From: Roseobacter fucihabitans
GTDB taxonomy: Bacteria > Pseudomonadota > Alphaproteobacteria > Rhodobacterales > Rhodobacteraceae
Reading direction: 5' to 3'
Length of the DNA: 64,000 bases
NCBI RefSeq assembly: GCF_014337925.2
Contig: NZ_CP143423.1
Span: forward strand, 4,060,501-4,124,500
A program made the position numbers and the translations under genes. This document shows positions 13,350 to 19,133 of the stretch, one piece after another (within the stretch, counting starts at the first letter, position 1; every line of letters begins with the position of its first letter). The notes beneath the pieces are model-generated. The model searched no databases. It was not told the DNA's origin and saw only the letters and a list, made by a program, of their open reading frames with translations.

Positions 13350-15148
<1,799 letters not shown>

Positions 15149-15251
15149 TCAAATATCATCGCATAGACCGATGCTCCCTGTGCACTGTCTCGCGTCACGT
15201 CAAACGGAGTGCACACGCAGGTTTCTGGCGAAACCCGCTGTCGCGCACCAT

Positions 15252-15278
15252 TGCGCGAATATGTTTCATATTCGCGCA
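15252..15278 (-). terminator. Perfect 12-bp hairpin directly after bchY
   Basis: TGCGCGAATATG (15252-15263) pairs perfectly with CATATTCGCGCA (15267-15278) around a TTT loop, directly abutting the bchY stop codon. No T-run follows on the - strand. It resembles the pufC hairpin in position and lack of U-tract and may protect the 3' end of an upstream message segment. Confidence 0.6.
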
Positions 15279-16859
15279 TCATACCATCTGCGCGGCTTTG
15301 GCCGCCCTTGCTTGCTTGTCGAGCTTCTTCTGATGCTGGGCGCGGAAATCGGGGCGCAGGTTCGGGGAACCTTCCCAAACACCGGCGGTATCGCCTTCGC
15401 CCACATCCTCAAAGAAGGCTTTCATATTGGCCATGCGGGCTTTATTCCCCATGGCCGCATTGATCACTTCGGCCAGTGACCCCGCCCCTGCCGGACCCAT
15501 CAAGGGGCGCGCGGAAATCAGGTTGGTGAAATAGAGGCCGGGAATGCCTTTTTCTTTGGCCTTTTGCACAACAGGCGTCGTACCAATGGCCAGATCAGGC
15601 TGGATCGCTTCCATCGCGGCGCAATCATCTTCCAGGCTCGCGCGGAATTTGACCTTCACACCCTTGGCTTCGAGCCAGGCTGCATCATCCGCAGACCAGG
15701 GCGATTTCGCACAGGCCGTGCCGACATAAGGCACATCCGCGCCGCTTTCGATCAACAGACGCGCAACGAGGAGTTCAGAACCCTCATAGCCCGAGAGCGT
15801 GATCGTCCCCTTGATCGGTGCACCCGCAAGAGCGCTCTTGATCGCAGGCAGGAAAGCGTTTTGCGCCGCAGCAATCTGCGCGGCAGGCACGTTATAAGCA
15901 TCCCCAATCGCGGCCATCCATGCGGCGGTGCCGTCATGACCCACGGGAGCGGAACCCACGACGGTACGACCGGCGGCCTGAAACTGACGCACGGCATCTG
16001 TATAAAACGGGTGGATCGCCGCGACGACACCACAATCAAGTGCGGCGTATAACTCACGCCATTCCCGGCAGGGCACAACGGGACCCGCGGCCAGACCCAT
16101 CGGGGCCAGCATCGCGCCAATCATCATCGGATCCGCCGGGAACATTTCACCCAAAAGCGCAACCGTTGGACGGTCATGTTTGCCGCCAGCGGGTTTGGCT
16201 ACGGGTCCGGCCTTAATTTCGCGGCGCGCATATTCCAGCATCGCACCGGCCAAGACGTCCTTGGCCTCTGCGTGGGTCGGCACACCAAAGCCGGGCACGT
16301 CGATACCGACGATCCGCACGCCGTTGATTTCATCAGGCAGCAGGCGCAAAGGCACGCCGCTGGCTGTCGGGACGCACAGGTTAGTCACCACAATCGCGTC
16401 ATAATTAGCAGGGTCGGCCAGCTCATGGACACTCTCGCGGATGTCCTCGAACAGCTTGCCGGTCACCAGCGATTCCGAATTGAACGGCACATAACCAACA
16501 GAGCGTCGCGCGCCGTAAAAATGCGACACAAAGGTCAGCCCATACACACAACAGGCAGATCCAGACAGCACTGTCGCCACCCGTTTCATCCGCAGACCCA
16601 CCCGCAGCGACCCGAAGGCGGGACACATGGATTGGGGTTTATCATGCGGGCCCATCGGATAATCGGCTTTGAATTTATCAAGAATTTCGGATTTGCCCGC
16701 GATACGGGCCGCCTCGGCCATCTCACCACCGGAATGACAGCCCCCACCGTCCTGAGCGATCTGGGGGACATCGCCCGGCACACGTGACACATCACCATGC
16801 GGGTGACCCTTGATCACCTCGGCATCTGTGGCCGCGTCATGTGTAACTTCTTTGTTCAC
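15279..16859 (-). CDS. bchY: Chlorophyllide a reductase subunit Y
   Basis: A 526-residue nitrogenase-like partner of BchZ. Conserved cysteines for the [4Fe-4S] cluster appear in MCPAFGSLRVGLR and GSACCVYGLTF (residues about 78-108), and another at VTNLCVPTASGVP. The start is a GTG at 16859 with a CGGAG site nine bases upstream, inside a GTGA overlap with a 57-codon small ORF. The first 60 residues (Asp-, Gly- and His-rich) are a variable extension typical of BchY. It is in the superoperon between bchX and bchZ. Confidence 0.95.
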   Translation of the reverse strand: MNKEVTHDAATDAEVIKGHPHGDVSRVPGDVPQIAQDGGGCHSGGEMAEAARIAGKSEILDKFKADYPMGPHDKPQSMCPAFGSLRVGLRMKRVATVLSGSACCVYGLTFVSHFYGARRSVGYVPFNSESLVTGKLFEDIRESVHELADPANYDAIVVTNLCVPTASGVPLRLLPDEINGVRIVGIDVPGFGVPTHAEAKDVLAGAMLEYARREIKAGPVAKPAGGKHDRPTVALLGEMFPADPMMIGAMLAPMGLAAGPVVPCREWRELYAALDCGVVAAIHPFYTDAVRQFQAAGRTVVGSAPVGHDGTAAWMAAIGDAYNVPAAQIAAAQNAFLPAIKSALAGAPIKGTITLSGYEGSELLVARLLIESGADVPYVGTACAKSPWSADDAAWLEAKGVKVKFRASLEDDCAAMEAIQPDLAIGTTPVVQKAKEKGIPGLYFTNLISARPLMGPAGAGSLAEVINAAMGNKARMANMKAFFEDVGEGDTAGVWEGSPNLRPDFRAQHQKKLDKQARAAKAAQMV

Positions 16860-17029
16860 TGATCAGTGCTCCGAGTGGTAAAGTGGGAAGTGCGCAACCT
16901 GTTTATCAACTCAAAGGACTGATCCGCTGCATCCCGGCTGCATTCCAACAGCTTCAGTGATTGCTGAAATTTATAGGCCGCTCTTTCAAGCGCCTGCTGT
17001 GATGTTTCAAAATGCTCAAGCTTAGTCAT
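16856..17029 (-). CDS. Small ORF B between bchX and bchY, 57 aa, unknown
   Basis: An unrecognised small soluble protein starting MTKLEHFETSQQALERAAYK and ending HFTTRSTDQ, probably largely helical, with a single cysteine (LLECSRD). Its ATG lies inside the end of small ORF A (ATGACTAA overlap), and its TGA overlaps the GTG of bchY (GTGA), so it is wired on both sides into the chain bchX-ORF A-ORF B-bchY. The upstream ribosome-binding site is weak, which fits translation by coupling. I find no known family. The alternative is that it is a leader that couples bchY translation rather than a working protein. Confidence 0.6.
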   Translation of the reverse strand: MTKLEHFETSQQALERAAYKFQQSLKLLECSRDAADQSFELINRLRTSHFTTRSTDQ

Positions 17030-17174
17030 GCGGCTTTCTCATCGTTTCGTCGTCTTTGGCGTTTGGGATAAAACCAATGTCCTGCAAGAGGCGTTTGATC
17101 TGATCTTCACGGGCGGTTTTGAGTGTCTGTCTGATGTCGTTTTCAACAAAATGGTCCGGTTGCTCATGCTTCAT
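17022..17174 (-). CDS. Small ORF A after bchX, 50 aa, unknown
   Basis: An unrecognised charged protein ([20 protein letters not shown] at the N-terminus, then a helix such as REDQIKRLLQDIGF, and a basic end). The ATG at 17174 overlaps the last 11 bases of bchX and has an excellent GGAGG eight bases upstream, which is the main evidence that it is translated. The stop overlaps small ORF B. It has no cysteine, membrane helix or signal peptide. Its location inside the chlorophyllide a reductase genes suggests a helper of that enzyme, but this is inference only. Confidence 0.65.
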   Translation of the reverse strand: MKHEQPDHFVENDIRQTLKTAREDQIKRLLQDIGFIPNAKDDETMRKPHD

Positions 17175-18195
17175 CGTATACGACCTCCAAAGATGGTTTG
17201 GGTGCCGCGTTCTTGCCTCGCATATCTATGTCGGTGGCAGGGACCAGCACGTAATCGCCACCCGTTTCGGAGGCATCGAAAAGACCCAAGAGACCGTCTT
17301 GATCCAGCGGCGTCGGGCGCACCGGCGGGGCCACGGCGACATTGTCGCCCAGTTCCGCAAAGAGCTGGCCCCATTGAGATTGGGCAGTTCCAACAATCTG
17401 GTAATTCGCGGATTTCTTACGCAGGTCATCGTCTTGCGGGATCGAGGCGAGGACCGGAATATCGACCGCTTCGGCAAATGCCGCAGCCTCCCCGGTACCA
17501 TCATCCTTGTTAATCACTAATCCGGCGACACCGACGTTGCCGCCCAGCTTGCGGAAATATTCCACCGCTGAACACACGTTGTTGGCCACATAAAGCGATT
17601 GCAAATCATTGGACGCCACAAGGATGACCTTCTGTGCCATATCGCGGGCAATCGGCAGACCGAAGCCGCCACAGACCACATCGCCCAGGAAATCGAGCAG
17701 CACGTAGTCAAAATCCCAGTCGTGAAAGCCAAGCTTTTCGAGCAATTCGAACCCGTGGATGATACCACGACCACCACACCCGCGCCCCACTTCGGGTCCG
17801 CCCAACTCCATAGCGAAAACACCGCCACGCTTGAAGCAGACATCCCCGATCTTGACCTCTTCACCGGCAAGTTTCTTGCGCGTCGAGGTTTCGATGATTG
17901 TCGGGCAGGCCTTGCCACCGAACAACAAAGAAGTGGTATCGGATTTCGGGTCACACCCGATTAGCAACACGCGCTTGCCCTGCTCGGCCATCATGTGGCT
18001 GAGGTTGGCCAGCGTAAAGGATTTGCCGATCCCGCCCTTGCCATAGATCGCGATGATCTGGGTTTTGGATGTCGGCTCGCCTTGGGGTACTTCGAGTGTC
18101 GGCTCTGCGGCTTCGTCGCGCAGGCGTTTGTCAAATTCCTTCAGGTTTGGAACGTCGCCTGCTTTCGGGTGCTTTTCGTCAACACTATCTTTCAC
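17164..18195 (-). CDS. bchX: Chlorophyllide a reductase iron protein subunit X
   Basis: The ATP-dependent electron donor of chlorophyllide a reductase, homologous to NifH and BchL. The P-loop is YGKGGIGKS, and the two cluster cysteines lie in [10 protein letters not shown] and [12 protein letters not shown] chose the GTG at 18195 (343 aa): it sits in a GTGA overlap with the bchC stop and has GGAAGGA six bases upstream. The open frame extends 12 codons further to 18231. The homodimer delivers electrons to BchY-BchZ in the cytoplasm. Confidence 0.95.
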
Positions 18196-19133
18196 GCTGC
18201 GTCCTTCCAGTTCAAAATCATTTTCAGGCATGTGGGATCGTTAAAAGCCTGTTCATATGCAGCAGGCGCATCCGTTGCCGGGGCCCGATGCGTAATCAAG
18301 CCATCAAGGCTCAAGGTGCCGCTTTCGACCAAAGCACGGGTCGCGGCGAGATCATCATGTGTCCATTCAGCAGCCACCCGGAACCGCGCCTCTTTCATGA
18401 AGGCGGGCGGGAAGGCAAAGCTGATAGGTTCTTTGTAAAAACCGGCCAGAACGATTTCACCACCCTTGCCGATGCAGCGCATAAGCATGTTCAAAATGTC
18501 CGCGCTGCCAGAGGCGTCATAAACGGACATGTAATCGGACCGCGTATCGTCCTCAGGGGCGATGACGGCGTAACCCTGCGCACCGCTGCGGCGCGAGGGG
18601 TCGATTTCCCAAACTGTCGGCGCAGGCGCACCCGCCGCCACGGTCAAGCGCGCCAGCAAGCGGCCCAGAACACCGTGACCAATGATCAGTTCGGGCATGG
18701 ATTTATTCAGCCCGGCCATCGTGTGGCGAGCGGTGGCAGCCAGCGCCAGCAAGGCACCCTGCGCACCGTGACCGGCATCGATTCGCGTCACGCGGTCCGG
18801 TGCTGTGACCAAACGAGACGCCGCCCCGCCAAAAAGGCCAAAGGCCCCATCATAGCAATTGGCACCCGGCACAAAGACATGATCGCCGGGGCGATAGCCC
18901 GAATCCGGCGCGGCCTCGACGACTTCGCCGACGGCCTCATAGCCCGGCACCAGCGGATAACCCATACCGGGAAAAGGCGGCATTTCGCCCGTCCAGAAGA
19001 GTTTTTCAGTGCCCGTCGAGATACCGGAATGAAGAATATCAACCACCAGATCATTCGGACCCGGCGCGTTCAGCGTGAGCTGGTCAACGGCCAGTTCGCG
19101 CGGGCCGTTCAGAAGAACTGCAGTGGTTTCCAA
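18192..19133 (-). CDS. bchC: 3-hydroxyethyl bacteriochlorophyllide a dehydrogenase
   Basis: A zinc-free medium-chain dehydrogenase-like enzyme that oxidises the 3-hydroxyethyl group to the 3-acetyl group of bacteriochlorophyllide a. The sequence shows [34 protein letters not shown] and the nucleotide-binding [15 protein letters not shown] place the start at TTG 19133 (313 aa): the product then begins [15 protein letters not shown] as in the family, and GAGGAG lies six bases upstream. The upstream ATG at 19190 would add 19 unlike residues. It has its own promoter region with two PpsR sites and leads the bchCXYZ-puf transcript. Confidence 0.93.

Follow-up and report, generated by a model that had tools for sequence, protein, structure and literature searches.

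Chlorophyllide a reductase is usually regarded as a three-gene enzyme, BchXYZ, and the closest described counterparts of the genes treated here are small proteins encoded beside it or beside nitrogenase-type enzymes. The available text of PMC5725709 describes PufQ, an 8.7-kDa protein whose gene shares four bases with the end of bchZ and which interacts with ferrochelatase, and pufK, a short frame in a photosynthesis operon suggested to be a translation gate. The delta subunits AnfG and VnfG of the alternative nitrogenases, and AnfO, are likewise small additional proteins, with genes that accompany those of a nitrogenase-type enzyme. As far as the available text of PMC9310841 goes, AnfO matters in the native host and is not necessarily needed in a reconstruction in Escherichia coli. 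AnfO of the Fe-only nitrogenase is a precedent for a helper that counts in its own host but not in a foreign one. Here we examine two small candidate genes, o1 and o2, between bchX and bchY of Roseobacter fucihabitans. The window, that is, the whole stretch of DNA that was analysed, comprises 64,000 nucleotides (nt) of contig NZ_CP143423.1 (positions 4,060,501 to 4,124,500). Its relevant features, in window positions, are as follows.

17164..18231, minus strand: bchX, iron protein of chlorophyllide a reductase (TIGR02016, 434.9 bits; cut-off 331.2)
17184..17188, minus strand: GGAGG, putative ribosome-binding site of o1 within bchX codons (Leu-Glu-Val), from the sequence
17022..17174, minus strand: o1, 50 amino acids (aa), family A, ATG start, TAA stop, from sequence and comparison
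17022..17029, minus strand: 8-nt overlap of o1 and o2, ATGACTAA, holding the o2 start and the o1 stop, from the sequence
16856..17029, minus strand: o2, 57 aa, family B, ATG start, TGA stop, from sequence and comparison
16856..16859, minus strand: 4-nt overlap of o2 and bchY, GTGA, holding the bchY start and the o2 stop, from the sequence
15279..16859, minus strand: bchY, subunit Y of chlorophyllide a reductase, GTG start (TIGR02015, 742 bits; cut-off 425.15)
13592..15067, minus strand: bchZ (TIGR02014, 825.3 bits; cut-off 529)

Like PufQ, o1 and o2 would be small proteins outside the photosystem structure with a 4-nt overlap to a reductase gene. They also differ from it: PufQ has a transmembrane helix (PMC5725709, available text), whereas o1 and o2 are hydrophilic and match no family profile, and the PufQ gene follows bchZ, whereas the bchX-bchY gap is the site of o1 and o2. 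A gate of the pufK type would have an unselected peptide, but the ratio of non-synonymous to synonymous substitution rates (omega) was 0.17 for family A and 0.24 for family B. Nor did o1 or o2 match the AnfG or VnfG profiles or any other Pfam or NCBIfam family at E ≤1. They are about half as long as a nitrogenase delta subunit, and genes of their type occur in some genera only.

Coding evidence for o1 and o2

Comparative sequence data indicate that o1 and o2 are protein-coding genes in the chain bchX-o1-o2-bchY. Two minus-strand frames of 50 and 57 codons had been read in this gap in an earlier note, and the frames, their lengths and their overlaps agreed with the sequence. The end of bchX and o1 overlap by 11 nt; GGAGG (17188-17184) lies 9 nt upstream of the o1 ATG (17174) and not eight bases ahead of it as had been stated. 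The unbroken series of overlaps had also been taken to make chance less likely. We shuffled the junction from the bchX stop to the bchY start 20000 times, keeping dinucleotides and flanks, and scored as a chain two frames, each of 30 codons or more, that overlap by no more than 14 nt and of which the last overlaps bchY by 1 or 4 nt. Since such two-frame chains arose by chance in 132 of the 20000 shuffles, the chain by itself is suggestive, and it is the comparative evidence that makes chance untenable.

The comparison started from 235 bchX-bchY regions, made up of 30 relatives, 120 single-genus regions, 5 plasmid records and the best 80 of 574 named genome records. The single-genus regions were drawn from 159 matching genomes of the bacterial family, 16 of which were already among the relatives (G058 without a stored locus) and 23 of which were left out. 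Removal of 22 regions, which were duplicate junctions or in which BchY was not reached or placed, gave 213 junctions. Relatives in the genus have the same junctions as named Roseobacter records, those of R. cerasinus, R. ponti and R. litoralis included, which places the window in Roseobacter. Iterated profile searches of the junction frames defined three families, A (37 frames, including o1), B (19, including o2) and C (42). A six-frame search yielded four further C loci, and a 25-aa frame matching both A and C (L224) was filed under C.

A family A model built from 33 sequences outside the genus gave the o1 product 39.9 bits, while the best of 2000 shuffles reached 8.8 bits. With the same model, the remaining three A frames from the genus scored 39.6, 33.6 and 15.9 bits and its non-A frames at most 9.6 bits. 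o1 starts within the bchX end, lies between bchX and bchY and carries the family core ARPEQIxRLLxDI, which has residues invariant across genera, in the version AREDQIKRLLQDI. Family A also occurs in second position, after another frame (L136). Among 5.8 billion proteins, o1 alone found two relatives with 68% identity; a search with the A alignment gave 136 matches among 7989 scored database proteins, and the product names shown for the 120 matches listed were hypothetical or uncharacterized protein. Six of the 37 A members have a CxxC-like start (L119, L131, L135, L136, L176 and L229), possibly a metal or redox site.

The o2 product scored 53.3 bits against a family B model from 18 relatives, and the best shuffle reached 10.2 bits. 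Its length falls within the 57-63 aa of the family, and it has the terminal 4-nt overlap with bchY. Identity to relatives within the genus was 19-37%, and family B evolves faster than A; a search of the same 5.8 billion proteins with o2 alone found nothing beyond o2 itself, which fits a fast change of its sequence. At locus L002 (genome G013), o1 is kept and o2 is down to 29 codons, with a recognisable N-terminal part, lying about 135-224 past the bchX stop and retaining the 4-nt bchY overlap.

Omega was then estimated for each family, from short, saturated alignments and, for A and C, on trees built from those same alignments; two of the 37 A sequences and one of the 42 C sequences were left out. 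It was 0.173 for family A (35 sequences, 40 codons; twice the log-likelihood difference, 282), 0.212 for family C (41 sequences, 25 codons; 154) and 0.235 for family B (16 sequences of the genus Roseobacter, 51 codons, bchX topology; log likelihood -2631.4 compared with -2689.6 at omega 1). Fixing omega at 1 thus lowered the fit by 141 (A), 77 (C) and 58 (B) log units. Controls with shuffled columns ranged over 0.69-1.57 in 8 runs for A, 0.71-1.22 in 20 runs for B and 0.57-1.54 in 8 runs for C. The G+C content was higher at the third than at the second codon position in 37/37 A, 19/19 B and 42/42 C frames, o1 and o2 included. These alignments indicate that all three families are under purifying selection. 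The earlier note had staked its case on a conserved frame in related gaps and on a substitution ratio away from one; profile matches of families A and B were present in such gaps, and the ratios of 0.17 (A) and 0.24 (B) stand against about 1 in the shuffled controls.

The B alignment fitted the bchX topology worse than a free tree (log likelihood -2631.4 vs -2544.3). Family B may have recombined, or the short, saturated data may mislead the tree.

Families at the bchX-bchY junction

The 213 junctions fell into those with no small gene (95), C (46), A (33), B (16), A with B (3) and other in-register frames (20), so that family A is present at 36 of them. With one junction per genus (n=134), the counts were none 66, C 37, A 15, other 12, A with B 1 and unresolved 3; a small in-register frame was thus found in 65 of the 131 resolved phototrophic genera of this bacterial family, and in 53 of these it belonged to A, B or C. 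The statement in the earlier note that bchX adjoins bchY directly elsewhere is borne out by the 95 junctions at which no small gene was recognised.

o1 and o2 belong to two of at least three alternative families sharing the slot between bchX and bchY. In other genera of the same bacterial family the slot is occupied by family C, with the consensus MFDLDxLxxxDxxL. A and C were found together at none of the 213 junctions (Fisher p 9e-5, relatedness uncorrected and L224 counted as C). The two-gene order A then B was found in the window, L004 and L009; another frame preceded A in L136 and preceded C in L048 and L107. A bchX-bchY tree of 93 loci required a minimum of 11 changes in family A, 4 in B and 8 in C, and the history of the three families is patchy. 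A common origin was considered and set aside: profile comparison with hhalign gave no convincing kinship, with a probability of 7.8% for A-B (E 0.0044 over 17 columns), 3.1% for A-C and 0.5% for B-C.

The strong matches were closely tied to bchX. A search for family A in 248 genomes of the bacterial family gave 20 matches at E ≤0.01; all 14 with E <1e-5 adjoin bchX, and the remaining six (E 0.001-0.008) look like chance. Family B was found in 16 of the 19 genomes of the genus, each time adjoining bchX (16 of the 17 with bchX); two of the genomes without B lack bchX, and the third is G013, with A and the shortened o2. For family C, searched in 198 genomes, the top 17 of the 27 matches listed (E ≤2.8e-4) adjoin bchX and the eighteenth (E 5.8e-4) lies away from it. 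The best matches away from bchX were thus at E 0.001 for A and 5.8e-4 for C, and no A or C homologue was found away from bchX at E <1e-5 in the genomes searched. In 15 bchX-bearing genomes of other alphaproteobacterial families, no A, B or C gene was found (best C match, E 0.065).

Some of these genes are already annotated in RefSeq, where a hypothetical protein is listed at the junction in four of the first five plasmid records; the fifth, from Roseinatronobacter, is without one. The four proteins occupy the same place as o1 and o2, and RefSeq gives them no function or family:

WP_169642524.1, Roseobacter ponti, bchX-bchY junction (the junction L012): family B
WP_158308178.1, R. litoralis, bchX-bchY junction (the junction L017): family B
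WP_076630660.1, Tateyamaria omphalii, bchX-bchY junction: weak match to family B
WP_259993782.1, Sulfitobacter sp. S190, bchX-bchY junction: outside A, B and C

Three more plasmid records list no gene there, in gene tables that are incomplete, and in one of them bchX and bchY overlap. In the available text of PMC6052148, bchX and bchY of Dinoroseobacter shibae have consecutive locus tags with no gene between them, and both genes are in a marker list in that of PMC6739100. No title or abstract on a gene between bchX and bchY was found in the literature covered, which included a minority of subscription papers.

Among family C proteins of at least 40 aa, 14 of 19 have a Cys-Pro dipeptide, many at the C-terminal end (L024, L028, L029, L089, L114, L137, L144, L145, L152, L162, L181, L184, L215 and L219). 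The dipeptide is in 0/23 shorter C, 0/37 A and 0/19 B proteins. Cys-Pro motifs can bind haem in other proteins and are known from haem-responsive proteins. Further frames of about 47-67 aa in the same register, outside A, B and C, have a helical look by eye (L079, L091, L125, L128, L183, L209 and L234; Tateyamaria, Octadecabacter and Sulfitobacter are among the hosts).

Predicted structure and translation signals

AlphaFold2 predicted o1 as a helical hairpin (helices 7-20 and 23-32; mean predicted local distance difference test score (pLDDT) 71.9, predicted template-modelling score (pTM) 0.40, 117 sequences) and o2 as a single long helix (3-56; pLDDT 87.4, pTM 0.53, 9 sequences). The o2 prediction is weak evidence because high confidence is common in predictions of long single helices. 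Both proteins are hydrophilic, with a grand average of hydropathy of -1.35 (o1) and -0.84 (o2), and have no Cys-Pro motif. They were not amphipathic beyond shuffled sequences, since 181 (o1) and 112 (o2) of 1000 shuffles reached the same value. Pfam scans of 33 A, 16 B and 7 other junction proteins gave scattered matches, the best at E 0.0023 for one A member. Weak matches of the 16S rRNA methyltransferase family NF008699 to 11 of 33 A members (best E 0.0042) and of its sister NF008700 to one A member (E 0.0018) were taken as chance. No solved structure matched the small proteins below E 0.1.

At 98 of the 114 junctions with a small frame, the overlap between the last such frame and the bchY start is exactly 4 nt, and overlap coupling is well supported by the sequences as the mode of expression. 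The GGAGG ahead of o1 needs a GAG codon at a conserved bchX glutamate. GAG was found in 48/52 junctions whose A or B gene is in the -13 register, in 20/23 junctions with other frames and in 27/37 at which the start at -13 to -7 is that of BchY. The corresponding counts were 10/39 for C junctions, in which the likely start is at -7, and 13/61 for junctions with no gene or nearby start, in which BchY starts later (A/B vs no start near, Fisher p 3e-15). With one junction per genus (n=122) the figures were A/B 13/16, other frames 12/13, BchY 18/22, C 9/31 and none near 9/39 (A/B vs none near, p 1.4e-4). On 14 phylogenetically independent pairs, a mean of 3.5 differed in the same way, 0 in the opposite way and 10.5 showed no difference; on a second tree, with 5 independent pairs, the values were 1.6, 0 and 3.3. 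An RNA element in the junction was considered and rejected: an Rfam scan of 15000-19000 gave no match at the gathering threshold, and the predicted fold had no unusual structure (z 0.15).

Two further observations concern the neighbouring frames. The bchX frame as listed begins at 18231, 40 nt within bchC. A GTG at 18195 would give a 4-nt bchC-bchX overlap, and because the matching overlap is annotated in R. ponti and R. litoralis, this GTG is probably the true start, giving a protein of 343 aa. The bchY-bchZ gap (15067-15378) holds a 103-codon minus-strand frame with a TTG start within bchY, whose stop shares one base with the bchZ ATG; the length of this gap differs between annotated relatives.

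Possible roles of the small proteins

The reading that we favour, with somewhat more confidence than doubt, combines a real coding chain, coupled translation and a function of o1 and o2 as helical accessory proteins of chlorophyllide a reductase. Ribosomes ending bchX would start o1 at the ATG in the bchX end, aided by the GGAGG within the gene, and would then re-start at o2 and next at bchY. Such chained re-starts would therefore yield each small protein in proportion to BchX and BchY. The products, which are expected to be soluble, hydrophilic and helical, would act on the reductase, BchX2 + (BchYZ)2. Linkage and coupling suggest that they may serve this enzyme as partners or assembly factors. 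We propose a non-essential accessory role in the assembly, docking or protection of its iron-sulphur parts, and in that case lineages could swap one helical helper for another.

Several points weigh against this reading. About half of the genera (66/134) are without a small gene, so such a gene is not essential for the enzyme generally, and bchX, with an omega of 0.019, is under much stronger selection than any of the three families. The association of GGAGG with a nearby start is one-sided but, once ancestry is counted, not significant and under-powered. Membership of family B beyond Roseobacter is weak and uncertain because, with a model from Roseobacter alone, three Tateyamaria frames scored 15.8, 14.8 and 8.5 bits and a family A protein scored 12.2 bits. 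The retained bchY overlap next to the shortened o2 of L002 is what a pure coupling role would predict. Published reconstitutions and a heterologous pathway are, with the many genera that have no recognised gene, the strongest facts against an accessory role: the available text of the review PMC7242693 reports that the reductase of Rhodobacter capsulatus was reconstituted from BchX and BchY-BchZ, and that the recombinant enzyme of Roseobacter denitrificans was studied. Bacteriochlorophyll a was made in E. coli with bchX, bchY and bchZ of Rhodobacter sphaeroides (PMC10443036); the available text, which does not extend to the construct ends or to the content of the R. sphaeroides junction, names no extra gene.

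That retained overlap in L002 also suits the possibility, raised in the earlier note, that the frames are a coupling device setting the BchX to BchY ratio. As a pure device, the short frames would carry ribosomes from bchX to bchY and gate their passage, with the peptide as a by-product. The 4-nt overlap with bchY at 98/114 junctions, the presence in one slot of families without convincing homology and the precedent of pufK before pufBA (PMC5725709, available text) would suit this explanation. Two findings weaken it, namely selection on the protein sequence (omega 0.17-0.24, against controls near 1) and the ordinary structure of the junction RNA (z 0.15); the family A core with residues invariant across genera and the 95/213 junctions without a recognised small gene also argue against it. 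Overlap coupling itself stands, and a device with nothing but a by-product peptide seems fairly unlikely. Slightly less doubtful, but still unlikely, are small regulators that ride in the bchXYZ transcript and act elsewhere in tetrapyrrole or photosystem assembly. PufQ would be the model, being chained to bchZ yet acting on ferrochelatase (PMC5725709, available text). The Cys-Pro dipeptide in 14 of 19 long C proteins, a kind of motif with known haem binding, fits such a role too; yet o1 and o2 are hydrophilic and without Cys-Pro, and the strong matches sit between X and Y of one enzyme rather than at the operon edge.

A further explanation concerns origin. An out-of-frame ATG is common in the bchX end, in many cases together with a ribosome-binding site, and frames could therefore arise there repeatedly, some being retained with slight or no function. 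The variety of frames that share this register (those of A, B and C plus 20 unassigned) is consistent with this, as are first residues dictated by the bchX end. A and C at least are not fresh, however, because each is common to many genera and has a selected sequence. We regard this explanation as unlikely; it would account for origin, not function, and is compatible with accessory proteins of the reductase. That o1 and o2 were split from the N-terminus of BchY is extremely improbable: BchY does have a variable N-terminal extension ahead of its conserved core, but the class medians of this extension are 61-66 residues with or without small genes, and the best model match was at E 0.045. Equally remote are chance open frames, for all that chains arise in 132 of 20000 shuffles and 93 frames of at least 40 aa lie in the surrounding 10 kb; they are ruled out by family conservation, omega and linkage to bchX.

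The view of o1 and o2 as accessory proteins of the reductase can be carried further, to a version that we hold only tentatively and consider rather improbable. The junction between bchX and bchY would be an interchangeable small-subunit slot, into which unrelated mini-proteins have evolved or been swapped for one job: A hairpins, some with CxxC near the start, B long helices and C peptides often ending in Cys-Pro. The job might be to sense oxygen, metal or tetrapyrrole and so to adjust or shield the nitrogenase-like enzyme during bacteriochlorophyll synthesis in air. Should the small proteins act on the reductase at all, they would be missing parts of the control or protection of chlorophyllide a reductase, and the differing proteins in one slot would be a natural experiment on the replacement of helper proteins.
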